From Alphaproteobacteria bacterium MarineAlpha9_Bin6 (GTDB taxonomy: Bacteria > Pseudomonadota > Alphaproteobacteria > UBA7887): a stretch of 39,465 bases of DNA. The position numbers and the translations under genes were made by a program. Positions 7,558-30,410 of the stretch are shown piece by piece. The stretch lies in the NCBI GenBank assembly GCA_002937585.1, contig PTKE01000012.1, positions 1 through 39,465 on the forward strand, read 5' to 3'. The notes beneath the pieces are model-generated. The model saw only the letters and a list, made by a program, of their open reading frames with translations, made no database searches and was not told the origin of the DNA. The number at the start of each line of letters is the position of its first letter. Positions within the stretch are counted from its first letter, which is position 1.

Positions 7558-7815
7558 TAATGTGCTCACCCGGAAGCTTGTTAGAACGCTACTCTAGTCT
7601 ACTCTGGTTAAAAGTTTTCGGCGCTGGTGTCGCTATGCGAGTGCCCCCGGCACGGTTTGCGAGATAGAATTGCTGATGGGTCTTGTCAGCAGGCCGTTTA
7701 ACGAAAATAATCTGCCGACTTTTCGCTGTCGTTGAGGTCGGCTTTCATTTTGAGGGAGGGCGTGCCGAAATTACCTCGTAACCCTACGGGGGAACATGGT
7801 TTCCGCCAAAATCGC
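7558..7815 (+). promoter_or_regulatory. leader region of the acyl-CoA synthetase-liv operon
   Basis: This 258-base gap precedes the first gene of the transport operon and presumably holds its promoter. The reading frame of the synthetase is open back to a TTG at 7732, but those extra 28 residues show no family similarity. No operator or terminator stands out. Confidence 0.3.
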
Positions 7816-9792
7816 ATGATTCAGAAATTAGAAACTTCAGGTTCAACAACGTTGGACACGTTTCCAAAACTTTTGGACGATTTGGTACGCCACCTTGGAG
7901 ACAGTGTAGCGATCCGGGAAAAAAATTTCGGTATTTGGCAGTCATGGACTTGGCGTGAATATATGGAAGAGGCCCGTGCCATGGCGAATAACCTCGCGAA
8001 GTGCGGTTTCAATCGTGGAGATAAGTTGGCAATCATAGGTGATAATCGCCCCGAACTTTATTTTGGAATTATGGCAACTCAAATGTTGGGTGGAGTTCCG
8101 GTGCCCATCTATCAAGACTCGATTGCTGATGAGATGGTGTACATCCTCGAACATGCAGAAATCAGCTTTGCCATCGTCGAAGATCAGGAGCAGGTCGATA
8201 AGCTGCTATCTATCCGCGACAAATTGCCTAATCTCGATTTTGTCATTTATGAGGACGACCGAGGTTTGCGAAATTACGAAGAGCATGGCCTAATGTCTTA
8301 CGCTGCGGCACGAGAGCAGGGATTTTCGTTTGCCGCAGAAAATCCAAAATTCGTTGACGAACAGATCCAGAAGACTCAGGGAACCGATCTGGCAGTTATG
8401 CTCTACACCTCGGGCACAACGGGTAAGCCCAAGGGCGTCATGCTGAGTTATGACAACGTAATTACTACGTCCCGGAGTGGCATTGCACACGATAAGTTAA
8501 CGGTGAATGAGAGTTTGGTTGCCTATATGCCGATGGCTTGGATTGGCGATCATTTATTTTCTTATGGCGAAAGTCTTTGCATCGGTTTTACCGTAAACTG
8601 CCCGGAAAGCGCGGATACAATCCTGCAAGATGTACGAGAGATAGGTCCGACGTGTTTCTTCGCGCCGCCCCGTATCTGGGAGAATATCCTCACCACGGTG
8701 ATGGTCAGGATAGAAGATGCTGCTTGGTTGAAGCGAAAGATGTTTTATTATTTCATGAAGGTAGCGGAGCGTATCGGGCCATCTTTAATGGATGGGAAAC
8801 CAGTTTCTCTCCCAGATCGTTTACTATACGGGCTGGGCAGGTTCCTTGTTTATGGTCCACTCAGGGATAACCTGGGTTTCTCAAAAATGCGGGTGGCTTA
8901 CACGGCGGGTGAGGCAATTGGCCCGGAAATTTTTACCTTCTACCGATCGATTGGTGTGAACATCAAACAGCTATATGGAATGACAGAAGCCACTGCTCTT
9001 GTAGTGGGGCAGGCTGATGGTGAGGTTTACCCCGATTCGGTGGGGGTTCCTTATCCTGGTGTCGAACTGCGGATAGGTGACAATGGGGAAGTAATGTTCC
9101 GCAGTCCCGGTGTATTTCAGGGCTATTACAAAAACCCAGAGGCAACTGAGGAGACGAAAACTGCTGACGGTTGGATTAAATCAGGGGATGCTGGGTTAAT
9201 CGACGCTGATGGTCAGCTGCGGATAATTGACCGCGCAAAGGATGTCGGGAAGCTAAACGATGGCACAATGTTTGCTCCAAAGTACATAGAGAACAAGCTC
9301 AAGTTTAGCCCTTACGTGCGCGAGGCCGTGACGCATGGAAATGGCCGTGACATGGTGGCTGCTTTCATCAACATCGATCTTGAGGCTGTTGGTAACTGGG
9401 CCGAACGTAGAGGGATTACCTACACTAGCTACACGGATCTTGCGGCACGGCCAGAAGTCTATGACCTTGTGAATCGTGATATCGAGCGTGTTAATAACAG
9501 TCTCGCCGAAGATCCTCAATTGCGTGGGTCGCAGATTCAAAGGTTCCTGATTCTGCACAAAGAACTTGACCCAGATGACAACGAGCTTACACGGACGCGC
9601 AAAGTACGACGGGGGTTTGTTGCGGAAAAATATGCTGACTTAATTGACGCACTGTACAGTGATCGTGACAGGGTCTTCATCGATGCGCAGGTCACATTTG
9701 AGGACGGGCGCTCTGGCTCGATAAAGGCGGAACTTGCAATTCAAGATGTTTCGGTGGTTACACCAAATGTTAGTCAAGCTCAGGCGGCATGA
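7816..9792 (+). CDS. AMP-binding acyl-CoA synthetase (long-chain fatty acid-CoA ligase family)
   Basis: This ANL-superfamily enzyme should activate a carboxylic acid with ATP to an acyl-adenylate and then an acyl-CoA. Visible signatures are the nucleotide loop MLYTSGTTGKPKGVMLSYDN, the A5-like motif LYGMTEAT, GWIKSGDAG with the ribose-binding Asp, and RIIDRAKD preceding the hinge. From ATG 7816 the protein is 658 residues, in the range of long-chain acyl-CoA synthetases; a TTG at 7732 would add 28 unconserved residues. It ends four bases before livG. Across alphaproteobacteria this gene class heads branched-chain-type transporter operons, implying that the imported substrate is an acid needing CoA activation (inference). 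Chain length or ring specificity cannot be read from sequence. Confidence 0.88.
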   Translation: MIQKLETSGSTTLDTFPKLLDDLVRHLGDSVAIREKNFGIWQSWTWREYMEEARAMANNLAKCGFNRGDKLAIIGDNRPELYFGIMATQMLGGVPVPIYQDSIADEMVYILEHAEISFAIVEDQEQVDKLLSIRDKLPNLDFVIYEDDRGLRNYEEHGLMSYAAAREQGFSFAAENPKFVDEQIQKTQGTDLAVMLYTSGTTGKPKGVMLSYDNVITTSRSGIAHDKLTVNESLVAYMPMAWIGDHLFSYGESLCIGFTVNCPESADTILQDVREIGPTCFFAPPRIWENILTTVMVRIEDAAWLKRKMFYYFMKVAERIGPSLMDGKPVSLPDRLLYGLGRFLVYGPLRDNLGFSKMRVAYTAGEAIGPEIFTFYRSIGVNIKQLYGMTEATALVVGQADGEVYPDSVGVPYPGVELRIGDNGEVMFRSPGVFQGYYKNPEATEETKTADGWIKSGDAGLIDADGQLRIIDRAKDVGKLNDGTMFAPKYIENKLKFSPYVREAVTHGNGRDMVAAFINIDLEAVGNWAERRGITYTSYTDLAARPEVYDLVNRDIERVNNSLAEDPQLRGSQIQRFLILHKELDPDDNELTRTRKVRRGFVAEKYADLIDALYSDRDRVFIDAQVTFEDGRSGSIKAELAIQDVSVVTPNVSQAQAA

Positions 9793-9796
9793 CCAA

Positions 9797-10591
9797 ATGG
9801 TGACTGATCACAAACAAATTGGTGAGGCATTGCTGCAGGTCAACAACGTTTCGCTCAGTTTCGGTGCGGTTCAGGCATTGAGTGACGTTAGTTTTGAAGT
9901 TCGAGAACACGAAATTCTCGCTATTATCGGCCCTAACGGCGCTGGTAAATCGTCGATGCTAAACGTAATCAACGGCTTCTACACTGCGAATGAAGGTAGC
10001 ATTGTCTATAAGGGAATAAGCCGAGCAAAGATGGAGCCGGCCGACGTTGCCCGTAACGGTGTTTCTAGGACCTTCCAAAATATTGCGCTCTTCCGGGGAA
10101 TGACGACGCTCGACAACATCATGACGGGTCGTAATACCAAGATGCATCGAAACTTTATCTGGCAGGCGATCTATATTGGGCCGGCGCGTAATGAAGAGTT
10201 GGAGCATCGCCGAAAGGCGGAGGAGATTATCGACTTTCTTGAAATTCAGGCGATCCGAAAGACGCCGGTTGGGCGCCTCCCGTATGGTTTGCAAAAGCGC
10301 GTGGAGTTGGGCCGTGCCCTGGCCGCTGAACCGGAACTCCTGTTATTGGACGAGCCGATGGCTGGCATGAATACCGAGGAAAAAGAGGATATGTGCCGAT
10401 TTATCCTTGATGTGAATGAAGAATTTGGCACGACGATCGCTCTGATTGAACATGACATGGGCGTGGTTATGGACATCTCTGATCGCGTCGTTGTGCTTGA
10501 TTACGGGAGAAAGATTGCTGACGGGTCGCCAGATGAAGTGCGCGGCAACCAGAGTGTTATTGATGCGTATCTCGGTGTTTCACGTGAATGA
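9797..10591 (+). CDS. livG: branched-chain-type ABC transporter ATP-binding protein LivG
   Basis: A 264-residue ATPase subunit that powers uptake with LivF. It has Walker A GPNGAGKS (45-52), the degenerate signature LPYGLQKRVELGRAL usual in LivG, Walker B LLLLDEP, and an H-loop EHDMGVVMD. The start is ATG 9797, just after the synthetase stop at 9792 and preceded by AGGCGG within the end of that gene, suggesting translational coupling; an upstream in-frame extension overlaps the synthetase and is unlikely. It belongs to the HAAT family, which carries branched-chain amino acids, amides, urea or carboxylic compounds. The synthetase neighbour points to an acid. Confidence 0.92.
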   Translation: MVTDHKQIGEALLQVNNVSLSFGAVQALSDVSFEVREHEILAIIGPNGAGKSSMLNVINGFYTANEGSIVYKGISRAKMEPADVARNGVSRTFQNIALFRGMTTLDNIMTGRNTKMHRNFIWQAIYIGPARNEELEHRRKAEEIIDFLEIQAIRKTPVGRLPYGLQKRVELGRALAAEPELLLLDEPMAGMNTEEKEDMCRFILDVNEEFGTTIALIEHDMGVVMDISDRVVVLDYGRKIADGSPDEVRGNQSVIDAYLGVSRE

Positions 10592-10626
10592 TAGTGGTCT
10601 GATGCTTTAGTGCAGAAATAGAAACT

Positions 10627-11586
10627 ATGGATTTTCTTTATTCGGTTACTGCTGATCCGGTCCTGCAAATTGTCGAGGATCCGGTTTTCTTTCTCCAAAT
10701 CATCCTCGAAGGTCTGATGGCAGGAGTGATGTACTCGCTCGTCGCCCTCGGTTTCTGCCTTATCTACAAGGCGTCGGGCGTGTTCAATTTCGCTCAGGGG
10801 GTCATGATGGTCCTCGCCGTGATGTGTATGGTCACGGTCTATGACGCAGGTTTTGGCATTCTGTTGGCGCTCCTCGTTGCGATGGTATTCATGGTGGGCT
10901 TGTCCTTTGCTATCGAGCGCGTTGTGTTGCGGCCAATGGTGAACCAGCCGCAAATCATTTTGTTCATGGCAACCATAGGGCTTGCATTTTTTCTTGAAGG
11001 TTTTGGGGAATTCATTTTTGGTGGTTCTTCGCAAAAAATCGTCCCGACAGAAGCGTTGCATATTGGTCGAGACGCGCTGTTGATACCGATGTTTGGGAGT
11101 GAGATTCGGTTGCAGCAACTTGATTTAACAGCAGGTGTTTGTGCTGCTTTATTGGTGGCGACCTTGGCACTTTTTTTTCAGAAGACGACCGTTGGGCGTG
11201 CGCTGCGCGCGGTCGCCGACGATCACCAAGCAGCGCTTTCGGTTGGTATTCCACTCCGGTCCATGTGGGTGATCGTTTGGTCTGTGGCCGGGCTCGTTGC
11301 GCTCGTAACAGGTATCATGTGGGGGGCGAGCAGCAGCGTAGATTTCAGTCTTGTTCTGATTGCAATGAAGGCTTTCCCAGTTCTGATACTGGGTGGTTTT
11401 ACCTCTGTTCCAGGGGTGATAGTCGGTGGTCTGATAATTGGGGTAGGGGAAAAAGTTGCTGAACTCTACTGGGGAGATGCCCTTGGAGGATCCATCGAGG
11501 AGTGGTTTGCTTATGTGTTGGCATTGGTCTTCCTTATGTTCCGCCCACAAGGTTTGTTTGGCGAAAAGATCATCGAGCGGGTGTAG
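10627..11586 (+). CDS. livH: branched-chain-type ABC transporter permease LivH
   Basis: A 319-residue inner-membrane permease with several hydrophobic helices and the family landmark VALGFCLIYKASGVFNFAQG near residues 39-58. The C-terminal half carries the conserved segment ALRAVADDHQAALSVGIP, which contacts the ATPase, and a C-terminal FRPQGLFG motif. It forms the translocation pore with LivM. ATG start at 10627, 35 bases after livG; ends three bases before the livM start. Length is slightly above the E. coli LivH value of about 308. Confidence 0.92.
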   Translation: MDFLYSVTADPVLQIVEDPVFFLQIILEGLMAGVMYSLVALGFCLIYKASGVFNFAQGVMMVLAVMCMVTVYDAGFGILLALLVAMVFMVGLSFAIERVVLRPMVNQPQIILFMATIGLAFFLEGFGEFIFGGSSQKIVPTEALHIGRDALLIPMFGSEIRLQQLDLTAGVCAALLVATLALFFQKTTVGRALRAVADDHQAALSVGIPLRSMWVIVWSVAGLVALVTGIMWGASSSVDFSLVLIAMKAFPVLILGGFTSVPGVIVGGLIIGVGEKVAELYWGDALGGSIEEWFAYVLALVFLMFRPQGLFGEKIIERV

Positions 11587-11589
11587 ACG

Positions 11590-12669
11590 GTGATTTATCG
11601 TGAAACAGGCCAATATAAGGCCACATACGGTGCGGATCAGCAGCTCTTTCCGATCGTTCAGGACCGGTACTTTTTTTTCGCCTTTATGGCGTTTTTAGTA
11701 ATTTATCCGGTATTTTTCGGATCGGATTACCTGTTTCAAGTCGTGCTTTATCCGGTCCTGGGTCTGGGCCTTTGTGCTTTAGGTCTAAACATTTTAACTG
11801 GATATTGTGGACAGATTTCACTTGGTACGGGCGGGTTTATGGCAATCGGCGCCTATTCCTTCTTTAAGATCACTACGATCTTCCCCGATTTAAACATCCT
11901 GATCATATTTATTTTTGCTGGTCTTATTTCAGCCCTCTTTGGCATTTTGATTGGCCTGCCAAGTTTACGAATCAAAGGGTTTTATCTAGCAGTTACTACT
12001 CTCGCCGCGCAGTTTTTTGTTGAATGGTGCATTAACCGCAGCGATTGGCTGTCCAATTACAGCCCGTCGCATACGATCGGTGCGCCACCGCGCGAATTGT
12101 TCGGCTTCCTGGTGATGGGACCCGAAGCGCCGGGCTCGGCTAAATACCTTGTGATGCTATTCATCGTCGCTGTGATGACGCTGTTTGCTAGGAATCTGGT
12201 GAGAGGGCGGATTGGCCGCTCCTGGATGGCAATCCGAGATATGGATATCGCCGCTGAATTAATCGGAATTCGACCGCTATTCACTAAGTTATCCGCTTTT
12301 GCCATCGGCTCGTTTTATATTGGCGTCGGTGGCGCTATGCATGTGATGTTTAATCTGGAGAACGTTGATCCGGAGGCGTTCGAAATCTTCTCAACTTCCT
12401 TCCCGATATTATTTATGATTATGATCGGGGGACTAGGTAGCATTCTCGGGGCTTATATGGGAGCAGCGTTCATTGTGCTGCTGCCGGTGCTGCTTCGGAA
12501 CGCGTTCCCGTTCTTGGGAATCGACATTGCTTCCCATGTCATACAGCATATTGAGTTCATGTTATTTGGCGGTTTGATCGTCTTTTTCCTGATCGTCGAA
12601 CCAGCGGGCCTAGCCCGACTATGGCAAATTTTGAAAGAAAAACTTCGTCAGTGGCCATTTCCATACTAA
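11590..12669 (+). CDS. livM: branched-chain-type ABC transporter permease LivM
   Basis: A 359-residue permease with roughly ten hydrophobic segments. Family marks are LGLNILTGYCGQISLGTGGFMAIGAYS in the first half, GLPSLRIKGFYLAVTTLAAQ in the middle (both read across the frame), and the ATPase-contact segment RSWMAIRDMDIAAELIGI near 217-234. The start is GTG 11590, three bases after the livH stop, so the two are very probably co-translated. It pairs with LivH in the membrane. No truncation or frameshift is seen. Confidence 0.92.
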   Translation: MIYRETGQYKATYGADQQLFPIVQDRYFFFAFMAFLVIYPVFFGSDYLFQVVLYPVLGLGLCALGLNILTGYCGQISLGTGGFMAIGAYSFFKITTIFPDLNILIIFIFAGLISALFGILIGLPSLRIKGFYLAVTTLAAQFFVEWCINRSDWLSNYSPSHTIGAPPRELFGFLVMGPEAPGSAKYLVMLFIVAVMTLFARNLVRGRIGRSWMAIRDMDIAAELIGIRPLFTKLSAFAIGSFYIGVGGAMHVMFNLENVDPEAFEIFSTSFPILFMIMIGGLGSILGAYMGAAFIVLLPVLLRNAFPFLGIDIASHVIQHIEFMLFGGLIVFFLIVEPAGLARLWQILKEKLRQWPFPY

Positions 12670-12773
12670 GAGACTCGCAGAGGAGAGTAATTGCGTCACG
12701 TTTCGGGTCAATGGTAAGGTAATAGTTGTTGAAGACAAGTTTCTGCTTAGCTTTTGGATTCAGGGAGGAATAA

Positions 12774-14084
12774 ATGAAGTTCGGCAAATATTTAATCAGC
12801 CTCCTAGCTGCAGTTGCCGTGATCTGTCCGCTTTCGACCACAGCGGTTGCTGAGGATGGCTTATATATCCCGATGTTCACGTACCGCACGGGGCCTTTTG
12901 CTCCAGGCGGTTCGAAGATTGCCAACGGCCTTACCGCGTATTTCGAAATGATCAGCAAGCGCGATGGCGGGATCGAAGGTCAGAAAATCATCTGGGAGGA
13001 ATGTGAGTTTGGCTACAAGACTGACCGTGGTGTTGAGTGTTACGAGCGGTTGAAAGGAAAAGGTAGCCTGATTTCCAATCCCTTTAGCACGGGCCTGACC
13101 TACAAGCTGATTCCAAAGGCCCCGGTGGATAAAATTCCGATCCTCTCCATGGGTTATGGCATGAGCGGTGCGGCGGATGGACGTTGGTTCCCGTGGGTCT
13201 TCAACTTCCCGACAAGCTATTGGTCGCAAGCTTCCGCCTTTATCCGCTATGTGGGTACCGAAATGGGCGGCATGGACAATTTGAAGGGCAAGAAGATCGG
13301 GCTGATTTTCCTCGAATCAGGTTATGGCCGCGAGCCAATCAAGTTGTTCGAGACTTTGGGCGAGAGATTTGGCTACGAGTTCAAGCACTGGGCAATCCCG
13401 GCGAAGCAGATGGCGGACCAGCGGAGCCAATGGCGCAAGATCGTGCGTTGGAACCCAGATTATATGTTCATGTGGGGTTGGGGTGTGATGAATCCCACAG
13501 CGGTCTCGCGTGCGGGCGAGTTTGGTTATCCGATGGACCGTTTTATCGGTGTTTGGTGGTCAGGTGATGAACTCGATACCAAACCGGCGGGTATCAAAGC
13601 GAAGGGTTACCGTGCAGGTACGTTCCATGCGCCGGGTGCCTTCGCGGAGGTCCACAAGGACATTCTGAAATTCACCTATGACAACGATATGGCGTTGGCC
13701 AAGGAGCACAACTACGGCGACGTGCTGTGGTCACGTGGTGTCTTCAACGCAATGCTGATAGCCGAGGGCCTTCGCAATGCTATCTTGGAGTTCGGTAGTA
13801 ATATTACCGGCGAGGAGATGCGTTGGGGACTTGAGCATATCGACATGACGGACGAGCGCTTGGAAGAACTCGGTGCGACGGGTTTTGGTAGGCCCTTTAA
13901 GGTGACCTGCTCAGATCACGAGGGCAATGGTCCGGTGTTGTTTCAGGAGTGGGATGGTGAGAAGTGGGTTATCGTCAGTGATTGGGTCGAGCCAATGCGT
14001 GAAATTGTTCGTCCAATGCTGGAAGAGGCAGCTGCCACCGAAGCCGCGAAGTGGAACTACACGATGCGAGACGACTGTACATAA
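12774..14084 (+). CDS. livK: branched-chain-type ABC transporter substrate-binding protein (LivK-like)
   Basis: A 436-residue periplasmic binding protein of the type I fold (Peripla_BP_6). A Sec signal peptide is clear: Lys near the N-terminus, hydrophobic core LISLLAAVAVICPL, and an AxA-type cleavage after TTAVA, so the mature form begins near EDGLYIPM. The mature protein opens with a ligand-binding segment (FTYRTGPFAPGGSKIANG). A strong Shine-Dalgarno AGGGAGG lies eight to nine bases before ATG 12774, consistent with high expression. It has more aromatic residues (repeated Trp) than amino-acid LivK proteins, which would fit a hydrophobic ligand, but this is inference. A terminator-like hairpin follows. 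Confidence 0.9.
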   Translation: MKFGKYLISLLAAVAVICPLSTTAVAEDGLYIPMFTYRTGPFAPGGSKIANGLTAYFEMISKRDGGIEGQKIIWEECEFGYKTDRGVECYERLKGKGSLISNPFSTGLTYKLIPKAPVDKIPILSMGYGMSGAADGRWFPWVFNFPTSYWSQASAFIRYVGTEMGGMDNLKGKKIGLIFLESGYGREPIKLFETLGERFGYEFKHWAIPAKQMADQRSQWRKIVRWNPDYMFMWGWGVMNPTAVSRAGEFGYPMDRFIGVWWSGDELDTKPAGIKAKGYRAGTFHAPGAFAEVHKDILKFTYDNDMALAKEHNYGDVLWSRGVFNAMLIAEGLRNAILEFGSNITGEEMRWGLEHIDMTDERLEELGATGFGRPFKVTCSDHEGNGPVLFQEWDGEKWVIVSDWVEPMREIVRPMLEEAAATEAAKWNYTMRDDCT

Positions 14085-14121
14085 GAACGTGCTGCAATAT
14101 TGACTGGACATAGACCGATTC

Positions 14122-14158
14122 CCGAGGAGGGCGTGATGCTCTCCTCGGAGTTATTTTG
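14122..14158 (+). terminator. strong hairpin between livK and livF (terminator or attenuator)
   Basis: Bases 14122-14132 (CCGAGGAGGGC) pair with 14138-14148 (GCTCTCCTCGG), giving an 11-bp stem with one G-T pair and a 5-base loop, followed by AGTTATTTT. It sits 37 bases after the livK stop and 60 bases before the livF start. It probably ends part of the transcription, raising binding-protein mRNA over livF, and may also protect the livK 3' end. Confidence 0.75.
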
Positions 14159-14217
14159 AGACTATCGATTTTTGTGTGGAAGCCCGTAGCATTTTAACTT
14201 CAAGGAATTATGGAAAA

Positions 14218-15033
14218 ATGGCTGCGAATGGTGGTGCTCTTCTCAAAGTAAAAAACGTCGAAGTCATTTACGACCACGTCATTTTGGTTTTAAAAGGCGT
14301 TTCTTTTGATGTACCAGAGGGCGGGATTGTTGCTTTGTTGGGGGCTAACGGGGCAGGCAAAACAACGACGCTAAAGGCGATCTCAAATTTGCTACGCTCG
14401 GAACGCGGCGATGTCACAAAGGGCTCTATCGAATATCTTGGTGAACGGGTCGACCAACTATCATCGAATGATCTGGTTAAGAAAGGCGTCATCCAAGTTA
14501 TGGAGGGCCGGCACTGTTTCGAACATTTGACGGTCGAGGAAAACCTTTTGACTGGGGCTTATACTCGCCGTGACGGTCGTGCAGAGATCTATAAGGACCT
14601 GGAACTGGTATACGACTACTTTCCGCTCTTAAAAGATCGTCGGCGCTCCCAAGCCGGCTATACGTCGGGCGGCGAACAGCAAATGACAGCCCTTGGGCGG
14701 GCTCTTATGGCGCGCCCGAAAATGATTTTGTTGGACGAGCCCTCGCTAGGTTTGGCGCCGCAACTCGTTGAAGAAATTTTCGATATCGTTCGACGGCTCA
14801 ACGAGGATGAAGGAGTAACTTTTTTGCTTGCCGAGCAGAACACGAATATGGCGCTCAAATACGCTGATTACGGATATATTTTAGAAAATGGTCGTATCGT
14901 AATGGATGGTGAAGCTGCAACTCTACGTGAGAATGAGGACGTGAAAGAATTTTACCTTGGACTTTCAAGCGGCAAACGGAAAAGTTATCGCGACGTTAAA
15001 CATTATAGACGCCGCAAAAGGTGGTTAGCATAA
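14218..15033 (+). CDS. livF: branched-chain-type ABC transporter ATP-binding protein LivF
   Basis: The second ATPase of the transporter, 271 residues. Walker A GANGAGKT is at 42-49, the ABC signature is SGGEQQM, Walker B is ILLDEPSLGLAP, and the H-loop region is LAEQNTNMAL, where the usual His is Asn as is common in LivF. The start chosen is ATG 14218, preceded by AAGGAA about ten bases away; a non-ATG start 14 codons upstream at 14176 is less likely. The C-terminus is unusually basic (KRKSYRDVKHYRRRKRWLA), beyond the usual end at about 235-245 residues. It is last in the operon and separated from livK by the hairpin. Confidence 0.92.
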   Translation: MAANGGALLKVKNVEVIYDHVILVLKGVSFDVPEGGIVALLGANGAGKTTTLKAISNLLRSERGDVTKGSIEYLGERVDQLSSNDLVKKGVIQVMEGRHCFEHLTVEENLLTGAYTRRDGRAEIYKDLELVYDYFPLLKDRRRSQAGYTSGGEQQMTALGRALMARPKMILLDEPSLGLAPQLVEEIFDIVRRLNEDEGVTFLLAEQNTNMALKYADYGYILENGRIVMDGEAATLRENEDVKEFYLGLSSGKRKSYRDVKHYRRRKRWLA

Positions 15034-15327
15034 AGTCGCTACGTTACCAGTGTGCATTATTTTACGTTACCATTGCGCTTCATTATTTGTATCTGTTCTA
15101 GCGTAATTTCTTCCCGATTAGGGAAACGGACGGACTAAGTCTGGTTTTTGGCAGTACGGGCCTTGTTAAAATAATTCTTTTTCGCAATTGCACGTTTGGC
15201 TAAGTTGTATAACAATACGACGTCGCTAGAGAAAATGTGACGTGTTTTTGATTTGATGGGTCGCGTGGACTTTTGCGACGAGAACTAGAATCATTTAACA
15301 ATAGCGATCTATAGAGGTTTCGTTAGC
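15034..15327. promoter_or_regulatory. intergenic region upstream of the H1-tailed MarR gene
   Basis: This 294-base region after livF contains two copies of ACGTTACCA starting at 15041 and 15064 (23 bases apart), each followed by TG-rich and CATTAT-like bases, and a small palindrome TTGT-ATA-ACAA near 15205. AGAGG at 15313-15317 is the ribosome binding site of the next gene. The repeats could be regulator sites, but evidence is thin. No terminator for livF is clear. Confidence 0.3.
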
Positions 15328-16104
15328 ATGGCACCAACGAAAACAAAGAAGAAAACGAGTAAGCGGAAGACCGCTGCTCGAAAGACGATCCGGAAGACTG
15401 CACGCAAGACGACGGTTCGGAAGACTGCACGCAAGACGACGGCCCCGAAGACTGCACGCAAGAAGACTGCAAGCAAGAAGACTGCACGCAAGACGACGGT
15501 TCGGAAGACTGCACGCAAGAAGACTGCACGCAAGAAGACTGCAAGCAAGAAGACCGTTCGGAAGACTGCGCGCCGAACTACCTCTCGTCGGGCTGGCGGC
15601 CGCAAAACTAAGGCAAGGGCTAAGTCCAAAGCTCGAACGCTTAAGCCCGGTGCCAGGTTGGCGGACCGGGCGCTTGAAACTACGACCCAGCGATTTGCGT
15701 TGGTGTCGCGACTCATTGCTCGAGCTTTTGCCCAACGGCTGGCCCCAAAAGGCATTGGCTATGGGCAATTTCCTGTGCTGCTTTGCCTCTGGGACGAGGA
15801 CGGCATCACGCAGAAAACTCTAAGCGAAAGGATTCGCATCGAAGCGCCAACCATGGTGCGGACCCTAGATCGGATGGAGCGTGACAATTTGGTGTCACGT
15901 GTTCGAAGCATAACCGATAGACGTCAAATTCATGTGAGATTGACCGAAAAGGGGCGGAGATTGAAAAAAGTGCTGGCTCGGTTGTCAAGCGATGTAGACA
16001 AAACTGCATTGGCTGGATTAGGTCGCGCGGGGCACCAAACCCTACGTGTGTTGCTCGGGCGGTTGATCCAGAATTTGGAGCAAGACATTGCTCTAGATGT
16101 TTGA
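15328..16104 (+). CDS. MarR-family regulator with a histone H1-like Lys/Arg/Thr-Ala N-terminal tail
   Basis: A 258-residue two-part protein. Residues 1 to about 108 are a low-complexity basic tail built from KTARK, KTTVRKTAR and KTASK units, like the tails of histone H1-type bacterial proteins (HctB, AlgP). Residues from about 110 to 258 form a MarR winged-helix domain, with QKTLSERIRIEAPTMVRTLDRMERDNLVSR as helix-turn-helix and recognition helix and RSITDRRQIHVRLTEKG as the wing. The tail should bind DNA non-specifically while the MarR part gives specificity (inference). ATG 15328 has AGAGG ten bases upstream. A terminator follows. It lies between the liv operon and a crotonase, one of which may be its target. 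Confidence 0.85.
   Translation: MAPTKTKKKTSKRKTAARKTIRKTARKTTVRKTARKTTAPKTARKKTASKKTARKTTVRKTARKKTARKKTASKKTVRKTARRTTSRRAGGRKTKARAKSKARTLKPGARLADRALETTTQRFALVSRLIARAFAQRLAPKGIGYGQFPVLLCLWDEDGITQKTLSERIRIEAPTMVRTLDRMERDNLVSRVRSITDRRQIHVRLTEKGRRLKKVLARLSSDVDKTALAGLGRAGHQTLRVLLGRLIQNLEQDIALDV
15394..15573 (+). repeat. in-frame tandem repeat encoding KTARK/KTASK units
   Basis: Within the basic tail (residues 23-82) the 15-base unit AAGACTGCACGCAAG recurs many times, directly abutted or separated by ACGACGGTTCGG-like 12-base spacers, giving 15- and 27-base periods. The near identity at the DNA level, including third positions, indicates recent slippage or unequal exchange, so copy number probably varies between strains. 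Opposite-strand frames are open here only because of the repeat. Confidence 0.85.
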
Positions 16105-16151
16105 GCCAAGCAGTTGTGGCGTATTGTGCGCTGCAAAGATCTGAAAAATGG

Positions 16152-16190
16152 GGCCGTGGTGAAAGATCACCGCGGCCTTGTTTCTTTTTC
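16152..16190 (+). terminator. rho-independent terminator after the H1-tailed MarR gene
   Basis: GGCCGTGGTGA (16152-16162) pairs with TCACCGCGGCC (16167-16177) through an AAGA loop, 11 pairs with one G-T wobble, and is followed by TTGTTTCTTTTTC. It lies 48 bases after the stop codon. Confidence 0.85.
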
Positions 16191-16522
16191 TTGATTACTT
16201 TCTATGTACCCTCAGCTGGCAGCGGTCTGTGTCTTTTGGTGTATGGCGCTAACTACTATGATTTGTTGTTCGTACCGGTGTTACGGTGTGGTTTTAATTC
16301 TCAAGTGCAGGCTTGGTCCGGCCCATAATACGTTCTGTTAGGTTGTTTAGTCGATCGCCAGATCTGTGATTGGGTCAGCTCCGTGCTGAGTGACAGAAAG
16401 TTTATTAAGAACGGAAATGGGCTCTCAAATTCGTTTTTAGGGAAAAGTCACCCTTTCATTGACAGGGGACTTATCAATGCCGACAAATCGGCGTTTCGAT
16501 TACTCAAAGGACTGGACGTATC
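16191..16522 (+). promoter_or_regulatory. intergenic region upstream of the crotonase gene
   Basis: No gene is seen in this stretch. A perfect -35 hexamer TTGACA occurs at 16459-16464; the best -10 at the right distance (ACAAAT at 16483-16488, 18-base spacer) is poor, so the promoter is tentative. AAAGGA near 16506 serves as ribosome binding site of the crotonase. Confidence 0.35.
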
Positions 16523-17344
16523 ATGGCTGATAATCTGGATCGACAATATGGAGAGTTCAAGACTCTCAAGTTCGACCGGCCGGCAGATCGTGTGTTGCGG
16601 ATCATTTTGGACCGACCCCAGAGCCTTAACTCGATTACCGCAGAGATGCATCGTGATCTAGTTCGGGTGTGGTCTGCTGTGAGCGACGACCCTCACACCA
16701 ATGCGGTTATAGTGACCGGCGCGGGAAAGGCATTTTCGGCTGGGGGTGATTTCCGCTTGGTAGAGCAAAATGCTGCTACTTTTGAAGCCCGGGCGAGGGT
16801 TTTTCATGAAGCTCGGGATCTAGTGTACAATATCATAAATTGTCAAAAGCCTACCATTTCGGCGATCCGAGGGCCCGCGGTAGGTGCTGGGTTGGCGGTA
16901 GCGTTGTTGTGCGATATTTCCATCGCTTCCAAATCAGCCCGAATTATCGATGGGCACACTCGTCTTGGGGTAGCTGCGGGCGATCATGCTGCGATCATTT
17001 GGCCGCTACTTTGTGGTATGGCTAAAGCAAAATATTACCTGATGCTGTGTGAGACTGTACGCGGAGAGGAGGCGGAAAGGATTGGGTTGGTATCCCGTTG
17101 TGTGGAAGACGAGCACTTAGACGAAACTGCGCTCGAGGTAGCAACTAAGCTCGCGTACGGCTCTCCAACCGCTATCCAGTGGACTAAATATACTCTTAAC
17201 AATTGGCTGCGCATGGCAGGTCCAATCTTTGATTCTTCGGCGGCGCTAGAAATGCTGGGTTTCTCGGGTCCTGATGTACTTGAGGGAGTTGCATCTTTGC
17301 GAGAAAAACGTGCTCCGAAATTTAGCTCTACGGCTCCGACATAA
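16523..17344 (+). CDS. crotonase-fold protein (enoyl-CoA hydratase/isomerase family)
   Basis: A 273-residue crotonase. The CoA-binding/oxyanion-hole loops are intact: [10 protein letters not shown] (73-74) and [17 protein letters not shown] (near 121). Aligning the latter to rat enoyl-CoA hydratase by eye, the two catalytic glutamates (E144, E164) correspond to Ala124 and His145 (DGHTRLG). It should therefore bind acyl-CoA but is unlikely to be a standard hydratase; isomerase, hydrolase or other crotonase chemistry is possible. The start is ATG 16523 with a weak AAAGGA upstream. It has its own promoter region after a terminator, so it is not in the liv operon, although both concern CoA esters. 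Confidence 0.85.
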
Positions 17345-17472: not shown

Positions 17473-18423
17473 TCACCAGTTGTCGACATCGCTTTGTTCC
17501 GCCTCTTTGTTAGTCTGCACCGAATTGTGGATTGGGATTAAAGACTGCAGATAGATTGCGATCGCTGACTGATCGTCAACAGTCAAGTGGCTGGTGCTGT
17601 GCTCGACTACATCAGCCATCGAGCTTCCAACAACATCTCCATCCGGCAAAAATCCAGTTTGGAGAAGCCAGGTGATGTCGCTTTGGCTCCAATCACCAAT
17701 GCCCGTTTCTCGGTCGGGCGTAATGTTGGGCACTTTCTCACCATCGGGTCCTTGTTTTGTACCAGCGTACGCGTATTTCGATTTAGTGGCGCCTAAGAGA
17801 TTCCTCGGAGTGTGGCATTCGCTGCAATGCCCGAGGGCGGTAACTAGATAGGATCCGCGATTCCATTCAGGAGAATGGGTGGATTCCGTTCGGTGAGTTA
17901 CAGGGCGAAAGAACATCAATTTCCAAGCCCAATTGGCAAGTCGAATGGAGAAGGGAAATTTCACATCGTGCTTACGGTTCGGCGCACGTGATAATGGAAC
18001 GGTACGTAAGTACGCCCAAAGATCGGAGAGGTCATCAGCTGTGATTCCGGAGTAAGCCGTATATGGGAAGACGGGATAATAGTGGGTGCCGTCTGGAGAT
18101 ACACCTCGGGTCATAGCTGTGATGAAGTCATGTTTATTCCAATTTCCAATGCCGTACTTGGGGTCGGCAGTGATATTGGGTGTGTAAAAAGTGCCAAATG
18201 GAGTCTTCAGTGCCCGCCCACCGGCAAGCAGTGTGCCACCGTGCTCGTAGTCTGTGTGGCATGCAACACATCCGGCTGCGTGCAGTAAATAGGCGCCGCG
18301 CGAAACCCTTTCAGCACTTGAAGTATTCTCGCTAGCAAATGCGCAGAACGAGAATATTGCCAGCGTTACCGTGGTCGTTAAAGTCCGACGCGCGTCCCTA
18401 AACGCAACGCTCGAGCATAACAT
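17473..18423 (-). CDS. periplasmic diheme cytochrome c
   Basis: The protein has a Sec signal peptide (RRTLTTTVTLAIFSFCAFAS) and two heme-binding sites, AAGCVACHTD and LGHCSECHTPRN (CxxCH at about 54-58 and 202-206 counted from the GTG at 18429), each with downstream Pro/Met-containing segments. It resembles the cytochrome subunits that accept electrons from membrane or periplasmic alcohol/aldehyde dehydrogenases, but no such dehydrogenase gene is nearby. GTG 18429 and ATG 18423 are both possible starts; I chose the ATG, giving 316 residues. It follows the cytochrome c' gene by under 25 bases on the same strand, so the two are probably one operon feeding a terminal oxidase. Confidence 0.85.
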   Translation of the reverse strand: MLCSSVAFRDARRTLTTTVTLAIFSFCAFASENTSSAERVSRGAYLLHAAGCVACHTDYEHGGTLLAGGRALKTPFGTFYTPNITADPKYGIGNWNKHDFITAMTRGVSPDGTHYYPVFPYTAYSGITADDLSDLWAYLRTVPLSRAPNRKHDVKFPFSIRLANWAWKLMFFRPVTHRTESTHSPEWNRGSYLVTALGHCSECHTPRNLLGATKSKYAYAGTKQGPDGEKVPNITPDRETGIGDWSQSDITWLLQTGFLPDGDVVGSSMADVVEHSTSHLTVDDQSAIAIYLQSLIPIHNSVQTNKEAEQSDVDNW

Positions 18424-18446
18424 CGCCACTCAGCCGGCAAGGAGGA

Positions 18447-18908
18447 CTACATTTTTTTTCTATATGGTTTGTGGCATCCACCGCAAGATTTACCCAACGC
18501 ACCAAGTGCCTTACCAATTGTTGCGATGTCGTTAGAAGCAGCGGCGCCTATCATATTTTCTGCAGCATCCTGTGCGTCAGCTAGCGCTTTGTCGAAGCCG
18601 GCGCGGTCGTCCCATACCTTAGCGAGCGCATTTGTTTTGCCGCCTTCTGTACCTGTGGGAAACAGTTTACCAAAATTTTCCAGGCCATCAGCAATCGCTT
18701 GGGCATCTGCCGCAAGATTAGCTGTAGTGGTTACCTGCCCCTTAACCACCGCAGCAATATTTGTAATATGCGCGCCGTTACCTTTCATCACGTTTTGGCG
18801 GAACTTGATGATATTTTCTGGTTCGTCTGCAGCATGCGCGGTGGATAGGCTGATGATCGTGCACACGGTCGCGATTGCAGTCAATATATGCTTGATTGGT
18901 GCAGCCAT
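18447..18908 (-). CDS. cytochrome c' / c-556 family protein
   Basis: A 153-residue exported protein with signal peptide ending STAHA, then a helical body and a single C-terminal heme motif [13 protein letters not shown] (C142, C145, H146), the classic four-helix cytochrome c' layout. The N-terminal RQNVMKGNG contains a Met placed like the axial ligand of low-spin c-556 relatives. Cytochromes c' bind nitric oxide or transfer electrons; which applies is not readable here. The start is ATG 18908, with AAAAGGAG at a six-base distance after passing a nearer in-frame ATG (18914); the frame is open further upstream without support. It heads a likely two-gene operon with the diheme cytochrome. Confidence 0.88.
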
Positions 18909-19112
18909 ATTCATCTCCTTTTGTTGTCTGAATGCATCCGTAAGCAATTCAGTGCAGTGTTAAGTTATAATCAAAGTGCCACAACTAGTGCTGTCTGTCA
19001 GCTGTGCTGTCCAGGGTATTTGAGTTGGTGTCTATCCCGTTTTCAAATAAGCTGCGCTACTACAAACGTTTTGGGCGAGAAATCCCCGTTAGGGGTGATG
19101 GAAGGAAAAATT

Positions 19113-27137: not shown

Positions 27138-27156
27138 TAGCCAGCGGAAATTGCCG

Positions 27157-27642
27157 ATGTTAACTCCAGCGGAGTTGAAACGCAGCTTTGGATTTCTTAT
27201 GCACGACGTTTCACGCCTTTTGCGTAAGAGGTTTGATCATCACGCTAGCGCTATTGGGCTGACACGCGCTCAATGGCGCGTGTTGGCGCATTTGTCTCGA
27301 AACGAGGGCATCAAACAGGCAGGTCTTGCCGAGATTCTCGAGATCAAACCGATCACGTTAGCCCGCCTTTTAGACAGGTTAAGTGCCAATGGTTGGGTTG
27401 AACGTCGTTCAGATCCAAACGATAAGCGGGCAAGACTGTTGTTCCTGACCAACAAGGCACGGCCAATCCTCGTGGAATTACGCTCGGTGGCGCTCTCCGT
27501 TCGGGAAGAGGCATTGTCTGGTCTGGACGCCGCCGAACAGGATCGACTGATAGACCAGTTGCGCGTGGTCAAAGAAAATTTAGTGTCGGCCGACAAGAGA
27601 GCAGATCGGGATTTGGCTGTCGATTCAAAGATAAAATTTTAA
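27157..27642 (+). CDS. MarR-family transcriptional regulator of the adjacent efflux genes
   Basis: A 161-residue MarR protein: dimerisation helices at both ends, winged-helix core with AGLAEILEIKPITLARLLDRLSANGWVERR as helix-turn-helix/recognition helix, and the wing with the family's D-x-R signature, DPNDKRARLLFLT. The likely start is ATG 27157; an in-frame TTG at 27151 adds two residues. It stops seven bases before emrA, so marR-emrA-emrB is one unit as in E. coli emrRAB, where the regulator represses and drugs or phenolics release it. Two near-identical palindromes upstream suggest autorepression. Confidence 0.9.
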   Translation: MLTPAELKRSFGFLMHDVSRLLRKRFDHHASAIGLTRAQWRVLAHLSRNEGIKQAGLAEILEIKPITLARLLDRLSANGWVERRSDPNDKRARLLFLTNKARPILVELRSVALSVREEALSGLDAAEQDRLIDQLRVVKENLVSADKRADRDLAVDSKIKF

Positions 27643-27649
27643 ATAGACC

Positions 27650-28765
27650 ATGGCTGAGTCTAATCCGTCTCCAACCGGTCCAGGCCTGCTACGACGTTTG
27701 ATCCGATTTCTCTTTCGCGTCTGCCTACTTATTTTGGGGCCGCTCGCGGTGGCTAGTGTGGGTGGCTACTTTTATGCTACCGGCGGCCGGTTTGTGACGA
27801 CCGACAACGCTTACATAAAAGCCGACAAGATTTTTGTCAGTGCTGAGGTATCGGGCCCCTTAACTGAAGTTGCGGTCAGCGAAAACACACCGGTAGTACA
27901 TGGGCAAGCTTTGATTCGGATTGATGACATGCCTTTCCGCATCGCTGTTTCGCGTGCGGAGGCGCGACTTGGCGTGGTACGAAGAACTATTGAGTCTACG
28001 CGCGCGCATTATCGTGAGGTGTTGGCTGTTAAGCAAGCGGCGGAAGAAAAAGTGGCCTATTTCCAACGAGAGTTTGGGCGTCGTGAGGAACTGCAGGCAA
28101 GAGGTGTTAGCTCTGAGGCGGCACTTGATCAAGCCCGTCATGATCTTGATCTTGCACGGCAAGCGGTTCGACAAAGCATCGAGAAAATTGCGCAAATATC
28201 GGCCTATCTTGGTGGTGATTCCGATAGGTCTGTAGAAAAGCACCCGGAGTATCTGGAAGCTCTTGCCGAGTTGAAGAGGGCAGCTTTTGAGATAAGCCGT
28301 ACTGTGATTGAGGCTCCAACAGACGGTGTGGTCACTAGCATAGGTTTGCAACCCGGAGAATATGTCACCGCCGGAGAACCTTTGTTTGGGATTGTTGTAA
28401 GTGGAGAAGTCTGGGTCGATGCCAACCTAAAGGAAACCAAGCTGACACACGTTACGGTAGGTCAAACAGCAACGATTCGGGTTGACGCGTATCCGAAAAT
28501 TTCGTGGCGCGCTCTGGTAGCAAGCATCGGCGCAGCGACTGGGTCGGAGTTCTCAGTGCTGCCCCCGCAGAACGCCACGGGGAATTGGGTGAAAATCGTG
28601 CAGCGAGTGCCGGTGCGGTTGATGTTGCTGGACTACTCAGGAGAGCCGCCTCTTCGAGCCGGCATGAGTGTTGTCGTCTCTATTGATACAGAGCAACAAC
28701 GCGAATTGCCTGAGTTTCTGGCAAGCGCCTTGGCTCATTTTGGCTTAGATCAACCGTGGCGCTAA
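27650..28765 (+). CDS. emrA: EmrA-like membrane fusion protein of a drug efflux pump
   Basis: A 371-residue HlyD/EmrA-family adaptor. An N-terminal cytoplasmic lead and one membrane helix (LLILGPLAVASVGGYFYA) precede the periplasmic lipoyl halves (VTTDNAYIKADKIFVSAEVSG and EAPTDGVVTSIGLQPGEYV), a coiled-coil hairpin, and a beta-barrel containing VWVDANLKETKLTHVTVGQ. These are standard EmrA features. It joins the inner-membrane transporter EmrB to an outer-membrane channel, which is not encoded here. ATG 27650 directly follows marR. A 97-base gap separates it from emrB. Confidence 0.9.
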   Translation: MAESNPSPTGPGLLRRLIRFLFRVCLLILGPLAVASVGGYFYATGGRFVTTDNAYIKADKIFVSAEVSGPLTEVAVSENTPVVHGQALIRIDDMPFRIAVSRAEARLGVVRRTIESTRAHYREVLAVKQAAEEKVAYFQREFGRREELQARGVSSEAALDQARHDLDLARQAVRQSIEKIAQISAYLGGDSDRSVEKHPEYLEALAELKRAAFEISRTVIEAPTDGVVTSIGLQPGEYVTAGEPLFGIVVSGEVWVDANLKETKLTHVTVGQTATIRVDAYPKISWRALVASIGAATGSEFSVLPPQNATGNWVKIVQRVPVRLMLLDYSGEPPLRAGMSVVVSIDTEQQRELPEFLASALAHFGLDQPWR

Positions 28766-28862
28766 TGTGCCAAAATACAGTGCTCTCATCCCGTATAAGC
28801 CTTAGAACGCCATCAAGAAAAGTTTGTAGGCACTTATTATTTTACAGAGACGGCGCTCTATC

Positions 28863-30410
28863 GTGGATAGCGCGCTAGGGGTCATTTCTCCATCGGGTTT
28901 CAAGTTACGTCGCGGCTGGGTTTTGGCCGCGGTGATGCTGGCTTCATTGATGCAGGTGATTGATGTCACCATAGCAGCGACTGCTATTCCGAATATGCAG
29001 GGGAATCTTTCGGCGAGCCCAGATCAGATTTCCTGGGTGTTAACTTCCTATATTATTTCCACCGCGATCATGACCCCTGCGGTGGGATGGTTGTCTGCAC
29101 GGATCGGTCGGCGTCGATTATTTATGATATCCCTTGCCGGTTTCACCGTTGCATCGCTTGCATGTGGACAGGCTTCTTCTCTCGAGGAGCTAGTAATGTG
29201 GCGATTATTTCAGGGTGCGCTTGGTGCACCAATGATGCCTTTGTCGCAGGCCATCCTGCTAGATGTATTTCCGCGTCAGAGGCACGGTTTCGCAATGGGG
29301 ATTTGGTCAGTTGGTTTGATGATTGGACCTATTATAGGGCCAGCACTTGGTGGCTACATTACCGAGGTTTATGGCTGGCCCTGGATCTTCTATATAAACC
29401 TTCCGCTCGGAGTCGTCGCACTGCTCGGCATTAGGGCATTCGTTCCGGAGTCTGAACGACAGCCCCGACCGTTTGACTTTCTCAGCTTTTCTGCTCTCGG
29501 CCTCGGTGTTGGATCGTTCCAGGTAATGCTTGACCGTGGTGAATTGCTTGACTGGTTTTCATCCCTAGAAATTATGGTCGAGGCGGGAATTGCTGCGGCC
29601 TGTTTTTATGTTTTTATTGTGAGTGCCCTAACCGCCAAACACCCGCTCGTCGATTTAAGGTTATTTAGGGACCGGAATTTTGCGGTTGGAATTTGGTTTG
29701 TTTTTATGTTTGGCCTGCTGCTGTTGACCGGGATTGCGTTAATGCCGCTGTTTCTGCAGAACCTACTCGATTATCCCGTGATAGTTAGCGGCAATGTATT
29801 AGTGCCTCGTGGGTTTGGGGCGATGGCTGCAATGGTCGTGACAGCGCGGTTTTTGGATCGCATTGACGGCAGGTGGTTGATGGGAATTGGGTTGATTCTA
29901 TTGGCCTATGCCATGTGGGCACATTCGCATTTCACAGCCGATGTAAGTGTTTTTACAATTAGTTGGGTTGGTGTAGTTCAGGGATTTGGGTTGGGCTTAG
30001 TCTTTGTTCCGATAAATACGCTTACATTCGTGACTTTGTCGCCCGAACACCGGACAGAAGCGGCAGGTATGTTCAATCTGGTCCGCAACGCAGGAGCTAG
30101 CATCGGTGTGTCCATCGTTATTGGGCAATTAATTCGAAACACTCAAATCAGCCATGAGGAACTCGTGGGGTACATTACGCCATTCAATGAGATGATCCGT
30201 GCTCCATTTCTTCCTGAAGTGTGGCGTTTGTCTGATGTGGCTGGTTTGCTTGCACTGAACAATGAAATCACCAGACAGGCAAGTACCATTGCCTTCCAAA
30301 ACGACTTTAAGTTGTTAATGTTCCTTGCACTGTTGAATATTCCAATATTATTCTTTTTTCGCCTTCCGAAAAAGGATTTGAAAACTACGAATACAGCAAC
30401 AGCGGAATAA
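28863..30410 (+). CDS. emrB: EmrB-like MFS multidrug efflux transporter (DHA2 family)
   Basis: A 515-residue transporter with about 14 hydrophobic segments, as in the 14-TM DHA2 family. Motif D1-like LMQVIDVTIAATAIPNMQG sits in helix 1, WVLTSYIISTAIMTP in helix 2, motif A GWLSARIGRRRLF in the loop after helix 2, and motif C-like GLMIGPIIGPALGGYI in helix 5. It exports hydrophobic drugs or metabolites by proton antiport with EmrA. The start is GTG 28863; no ATG is available before the conserved first helix. The gene is convergent with the binding-protein gene downstream. Intact, no frameshift seen. Confidence 0.9.
   Translation: MDSALGVISPSGFKLRRGWVLAAVMLASLMQVIDVTIAATAIPNMQGNLSASPDQISWVLTSYIISTAIMTPAVGWLSARIGRRRLFMISLAGFTVASLACGQASSLEELVMWRLFQGALGAPMMPLSQAILLDVFPRQRHGFAMGIWSVGLMIGPIIGPALGGYITEVYGWPWIFYINLPLGVVALLGIRAFVPESERQPRPFDFLSFSALGLGVGSFQVMLDRGELLDWFSSLEIMVEAGIAAACFYVFIVSALTAKHPLVDLRLFRDRNFAVGIWFVFMFGLLLLTGIALMPLFLQNLLDYPVIVSGNVLVPRGFGAMAAMVVTARFLDRIDGRWLMGIGLILLAYAMWAHSHFTADVSVFTISWVGVVQGFGLGLVFVPINTLTFVTLSPEHRTEAAGMFNLVRNAGASIGVSIVIGQLIRNTQISHEELVGYITPFNEMIRAPFLPEVWRLSDVAGLLALNNEITRQASTIAFQNDFKLLMFLALLNIPILFFFRLPKKDLKTTNTATAE

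Follow-up and report, generated by a model that had tools for sequence, protein, structure and literature searches.

The gene that follows an acyl-CoA synthetase and liv transporter operon in the alphaproteobacterium MarineAlpha9_Bin6 encodes a MarR-type regulator preceded by a long, lysine-rich tail with the composition of histone H1, and the question that this locus raises is whether such a tail serves the regulator or is a unit of its own. The window (the whole stretch of DNA that was analysed, 39,465 nucleotides) belongs to genome G000, a draft assembly of 2.38 Mb. The comparison set consisted of all nine genomes of its alphaproteobacterial family (G000 to G008), which are drafts broken at repeats. 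The features of the window on which the analysis relies are the following:

7732..15033, plus strand: acyl-CoA synthetase and liv ABC transporter operon (AMP-binding enzyme, livG, livH, livM, livK, livF)
15185..15218, plus strand: upstream block CAATTGCACGTTTGGCTAAGTTGTATAACAATAC, conserved in the alignment of G000, G001, G002, G004 and G008, and used in a pattern search
15205-15215, plus strand: near-palindrome TTGTATAACAA within the upstream block, from the same alignment
15313-15317, plus strand: Shine-Dalgarno sequence AGAGG, read from the sequence, within the leader common to the same five genomes
15328..16104, plus strand: tail-MarR fusion gene, 258 aa, ATG start, supported by the ORF and by orthologous fusions in G003, G005, G006 and G007
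15328..15645, plus strand: H1-like basic tail of KTARK-type repeats, residues 1-106, net charge +49, supported by composition, tandem array, predicted disorder and the stand-alone counterpart in G008 and G004
15703..16077, plus strand: MarR winged-helix domain, about residues 126-250, supported by the Pfam MarR match and by sequence and fold matches in the PDB
16146..16192, plus strand: intrinsic terminator, a 17-pair hairpin followed by a T run, from a scan (fold z = -5.55)
16523..17344, plus strand: enoyl-CoA hydratase (crotonase), the downstream neighbour, from Pfam ECH_1 and synteny

Within the operon, Pfam assigns the synthetase, livK and livF, and the names of the remaining liv subunits come from sequence and homology.

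The observation of a single ORF joining tail and regulator was confirmed, with limits exactly at 15328 and 16104, and the possibility that the fusion is a product of chance or of a frame artefact was rejected by the orthologous in-frame fusions in four other species and by the selection described below. The tail has 106 residues, where the preliminary description had counted about 108, and its H1-like composition was borne out: 49 residues are lysine or arginine (46%) and none is aspartate or glutamate. Its coding DNA is a degenerate tandem array at 15382-15573 with periods of 15, 27 and 57 bp. In loose terms the tail is H1-like, being a long K/R-rich, acid-free, disordered stretch rich in alanine, threonine, serine and proline. 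Since the H1-like profile families match the protein only below their cut-offs (PF07382, HC2, 24.5 against 40; NF038052, 20.9 against 135; NF038053, 15.7 against 80), the term is used here as a statement on composition. On the minus strand at 15295-15768 there are also two long antisense ORFs of 157 and 148 aa with LACSLLACS-type repeats; these are mirror frames of the tail repeats and not likely to be genes.

The remainder of the protein belongs to the MarR family. Pfam PF01047 scores 53.8 bits over residues 146-201 (cut-off 24.6), and this part matches many solved MarR structures, both by sequence and by fold. Like the family members 3s2w, OhrR (1z91) and MgrA (2bv6), the protein contains a complete winged-helix domain; unlike them, it carries the 106-aa poly-cationic N-terminal tail, and its MarR half is dispensable in related genomes. 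In the AlphaFold model, MarR-type helices and a wing follow residue 109, and the part before it is disordered and without structure. Confidence is moderate (pLDDT mostly 64-89 in the MarR part, none for the tail), so that the model supports the MarR fold and nothing finer.

The signals around the gene are shared by genomes with and without the regulator. The leader TAGAGGTTTCGTTAGCATGGCACC is common to G000, G001, G002, G004 and G008 in the alignment, tail-only genes included, and the leader of G007 resembles it by eye. Translation from the MarR domain only, which the preliminary description had raised, is unlikely, since no ATG precedes the domain and the same leader and ATG start the tail-only gene in the sister genus. 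The block containing TTGTATAACAA is likewise kept in genomes without an intact MarR; because of this it is probably a promoter core or the site of another regulator. The near-palindrome had been considered as a MarR operator and was rejected, being equally conserved where MarR is missing. A pattern search found it in exact form only once in the window, and hence not upstream of the synthetase gene. The gene's own 17-pair terminator suggests a one-gene transcription unit. No Rfam RNA was found in the tail-MarR region.

A tail was found at the locus in all nine family genomes, with a MarR that is intact in five, decayed in two and absent in two. Tail and MarR are fused in frame in G000, G003, G005, G006 and G007, the MarR domains of the four relatives being 57-72% identical to that of the window protein. 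The fusion is complete in G005 and G007. In G003 and G006 the contigs break inside the tail repeats, so that it is truncated or divided between contigs; the N-terminus of G006 was located on another contig end. In G001 and G002, which belong to the same genus as the window, a stop closes the tail ORF after 74 and 68 aa, respectively, and a MarR remnant lies out of frame with it, that of G001 having lost about 43 codons. In the sister genus, G008 has a 93-aa tail-only gene between livF and the crotonase and no MarR, and G004 has both ends of the same tail-only gene, each at an unjoined contig end. The 93-aa protein has no Pfam match. The tails are poorly alignable, and their length ranges from 47 aa (G007) through 134 aa (G005) to 160 aa or more (G006); all members have 34-53% K+R and zero D/E. 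Composition is kept and sequence and length turn over.

Selection was estimated as dN/dS (w) by the simple NG86 method. Between G001 and G002 the tail gave 0.17 (p=0.0018), with a dS of 0.28 similar to that of livF and livK, whereas the MarR remnant gave 1.12 (tail versus MarR, Fisher p=0.017), and the stand-alone tail of G008 against G004 gave 0.09 (Fisher p=0.0013); each tail test comprises 50-60 repeat-rich codons, in which homogenisation of the repeats could look like constraint. In most other genome pairs, comparisons of a short N-terminal stretch (20 codons) were not significant. Intact MarR domains are constrained as well (w=0.10 for G000-G003 and 0.16 for G005-G006). The tail is thus under purifying selection with or without MarR.

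The tree of neighbouring proteins is (((G000,(G001,G002)),G003),(G004,G008)),(G006,(G005,G007)). The simplest history on this tree would be an ancestral fusion followed by two losses of MarR, which depend on two nodes with moderate ultrafast bootstrap support (88 and 79). The stop that ends the tail ORF falls at one and the same codon (RKR*A) in G001, G004 and G008, and given this common stop the order of fusion and fission could differ. Because the tail is kept as a stand-alone gene where MarR has decayed or is absent, the comparison indicates that it is not merely an accessory of MarR but a unit of its own, whichever that order was. The proposal that the tail is simply a helper of the regulator does not fit this persistence.

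The proposed place of the gene beside the synthetase-liv operon is conserved by synteny within the family: the operon or its end adjoins the tail gene in every family genome whose contig reaches there. Among MarR domains from outside the family, the closest ones (f82, that is G089, G203, G295 and G372, plus G164) lack the tail, and their loci share with the window a diheme cytochrome c, mostly also a cytochrome c', and not the liv operon. Since these closest outside orthologues have neither, the tail and the liv neighbourhood both appear to have been gained in the window's family. At window 17473-18947, as in loci L086, L087, L088, L089 and L090, a diheme cytochrome c lies near the MarR orthologue, usually together with cytochrome c'. 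This neighbour is kept in families without tail or liv neighbour, which suggests that the link between cytochrome c and MarR is the older one. A second MarR gene of the window (27151-27642), beside HlyD-type and MFS efflux-like genes (27151-30410), is probably an ordinary efflux regulator.

Our preferred reading, to which we give a probability of roughly 0.6, is that the tail is an autonomous H1-like DNA-binding polypeptide which can be placed at specific sites by the MarR dimer where the two are fused. Among the points in its favour are the tail in all nine genomes, the constraint on the tail without MarR, the constraint on intact MarR, and the conserved leader and promoter-like block; among those against it is that RNA, polyphosphate or ribosomes can likewise be the ligands of basic disordered peptides. 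Alternatively, the tail could be a MarR accessory that speeds the search for targets or strengthens repression of the adjoining synthetase-liv operon or of the crotonase. The conservation of the fusion in five species, the position next to the liv operon, or next to its end, wherever the contig reaches that far and the strong constraint on MarR where it is fused would all agree with this, and control of the synthetase-liv operon by the tail-MarR protein is possible. We nevertheless consider the accessory role unlikely: the tail is under selection without MarR, the near-palindrome is conserved also in genomes that lack MarR and has no second exact copy in the window, hence none before the synthetase gene, the tail-MarR gene has its own terminator, and the outgroup orthologues are not near liv. 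For the terminator, the near-palindrome kept without MarR and the outgroup loci, the suggested control of acyl-CoA catabolism is left unsupported.

The tail might instead tether polyphosphate, RNA or ribosomes, in a granule or condensate function like that of AlgP, and not bind DNA. The H1-like tail of AlgP acts in the spacing of polyphosphate granules (PMC9239181), and in G006 a CHAD gene is found at a distance of two genes from the fusion. A search for CHAD and PPK2 nevertheless gave matches in G006 only, with none in the other eight genomes, and a polyphosphate link was rejected on this ground; we hold a tethering role to be quite improbable. That the tail is a neutral 5' repeat expansion of the MarR gene, tolerated and without function, is hardly credible. 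A tandem array of variable length and composition is what such an expansion would look like, but every member has 34-53% K+R and no D/E, the stand-alone tail genes have w=0.09-0.17, the promoter block and leader are conserved, and the tail outlives MarR.

According to the preferred reading, in which the tail binds DNA on its own, the locus would encode a disordered, poly-cationic, H1-like polypeptide with its own selected function, most likely to bind, bridge or compact DNA non-specifically, DNA being the presumed ligand. The MarR half would be expected to form a dimer that recognises a specific operator and responds to a ligand, and that thereby brings two +49 tails to selected sites. The fusion would then work as a repressor that compacts DNA locally, or as an organiser of the nucleoid, laid out like a linker histone. 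Linker histone H1 itself consists of a winged helix and a lysine-rich tail, a layout that is an analogy to the window protein and not a homology.

The KPAA-repeat H1-like tails of Pseudomonas AlgP (AlgR3) and PhaF bind DNA (PMC9239181), and by analogy the tail of the window protein may bind and compact DNA. As in the window protein, a long disordered lysine/alanine repeat tail is joined in AlgP and PhaF to a folded or helical part. They differ in that their KPAA repeats are C-terminal and their partner is a helical part or a phasin and not a sequence-specific regulator, and the likeness is treated as an analogy. Chlamydial Hc2/HctB and the H1-like proteins of Burkholderia and Bordetella are low-complexity basic proteins rich in K, R, A and T, and the 93-aa protein of G008 is similar in kind. 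Linker histone H1, mycobacterial HupB and actinobacterial TopA also combine a folded DNA-binding or DNA-acting domain with a lysine-rich disordered tail; their folded parts are from families unrelated to MarR, and the likeness is one of layout only. The tail repeats of TopA in actinobacteria are treated in PMC7398561. G006 also encodes a DNA topoisomerase I with a lysine-rich C-terminal tail (KKTTKKSTARKSTAKKTTKKATKK; L123:545-3232). Another candidate H1-like gene in G000, a weak HC2 match at G000:C82, was rejected, the ORF being antisense to a pentapeptide-repeat frame and not an H1-like protein.

The statement that MarR proteins normally lack such tails stands for control MarR ORFs, of which only 2 of 54 distinct ones carry a genuine basic tail (a third match precedes the likely start codon), but not for a second MarR subfamily, here called type-b. 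With the G017 protein as query, type-b matches were obtained in 39 of the 385 sampled alphaproteobacterial genomes, and a C-terminal H1-like tail (15 aa or longer, K+R 30% or more) is present in 20 of the 30 loci read. Type-b MarRs (G017, G248, G146 and others) share with the window protein the winged helix and the K/R-rich tail; they differ in belonging to another subfamily and in carrying a C-terminal tail (at the N-terminus in G133) of up to about 860 aa. G000, G005, G006 and G007 gave no match to the G017 query at E<=1e-18. The window MarR lies outside the type-b subfamily, and the tails of the latter are of independent origin.

Single loci illustrate the range of these proteins. The tail of a MarR in G146 (L154:671-3694) is complete and comprises about 860 aa, of which 526 are K/R, a similar giant tail in G244 (L155) runs off the contig, and in G133 (L156) the basic tail of a type-b MarR is N-terminal. 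In G011 (L122:4598-5982), which belongs to the same genus as G146 and G244, a MarR with a 46-aa basic tail is immediately followed by a separate 278-codon open frame of KTAKRK repeats; in its same-genus relatives MarR and long tail are one gene. From these comparisons MarR and H1-like tail have been joined more than once, and they may have been separated more than once as well. We would propose only tentatively that linker-histone-like proteins were formed repeatedly in Alphaproteobacteria, H1-like tails of some 50 to 860 residues being joined to the sequence-specific winged-helix regulator MarR; these would act as targetable chromatin proteins whose tail is able to split off again as a free H1-like protein. 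A literature search of open-licence papers found none on a MarR-H1 fusion, and this speaks only weakly for novelty.

Most discussion of bacterial H1-like tails concerns stand-alone basic proteins, or tails whose partner is HU, a topoisomerase or a phasin. A tail borne by a sequence-specific regulator, which has arisen more than once and which survives the loss of that regulator, offers a natural experiment on the tail alone as compared with the tail to which a targeting domain is added. Fused, split and tail-only versions occur in related genomes at one locus, so that natural proteins are available for a direct test of the question.
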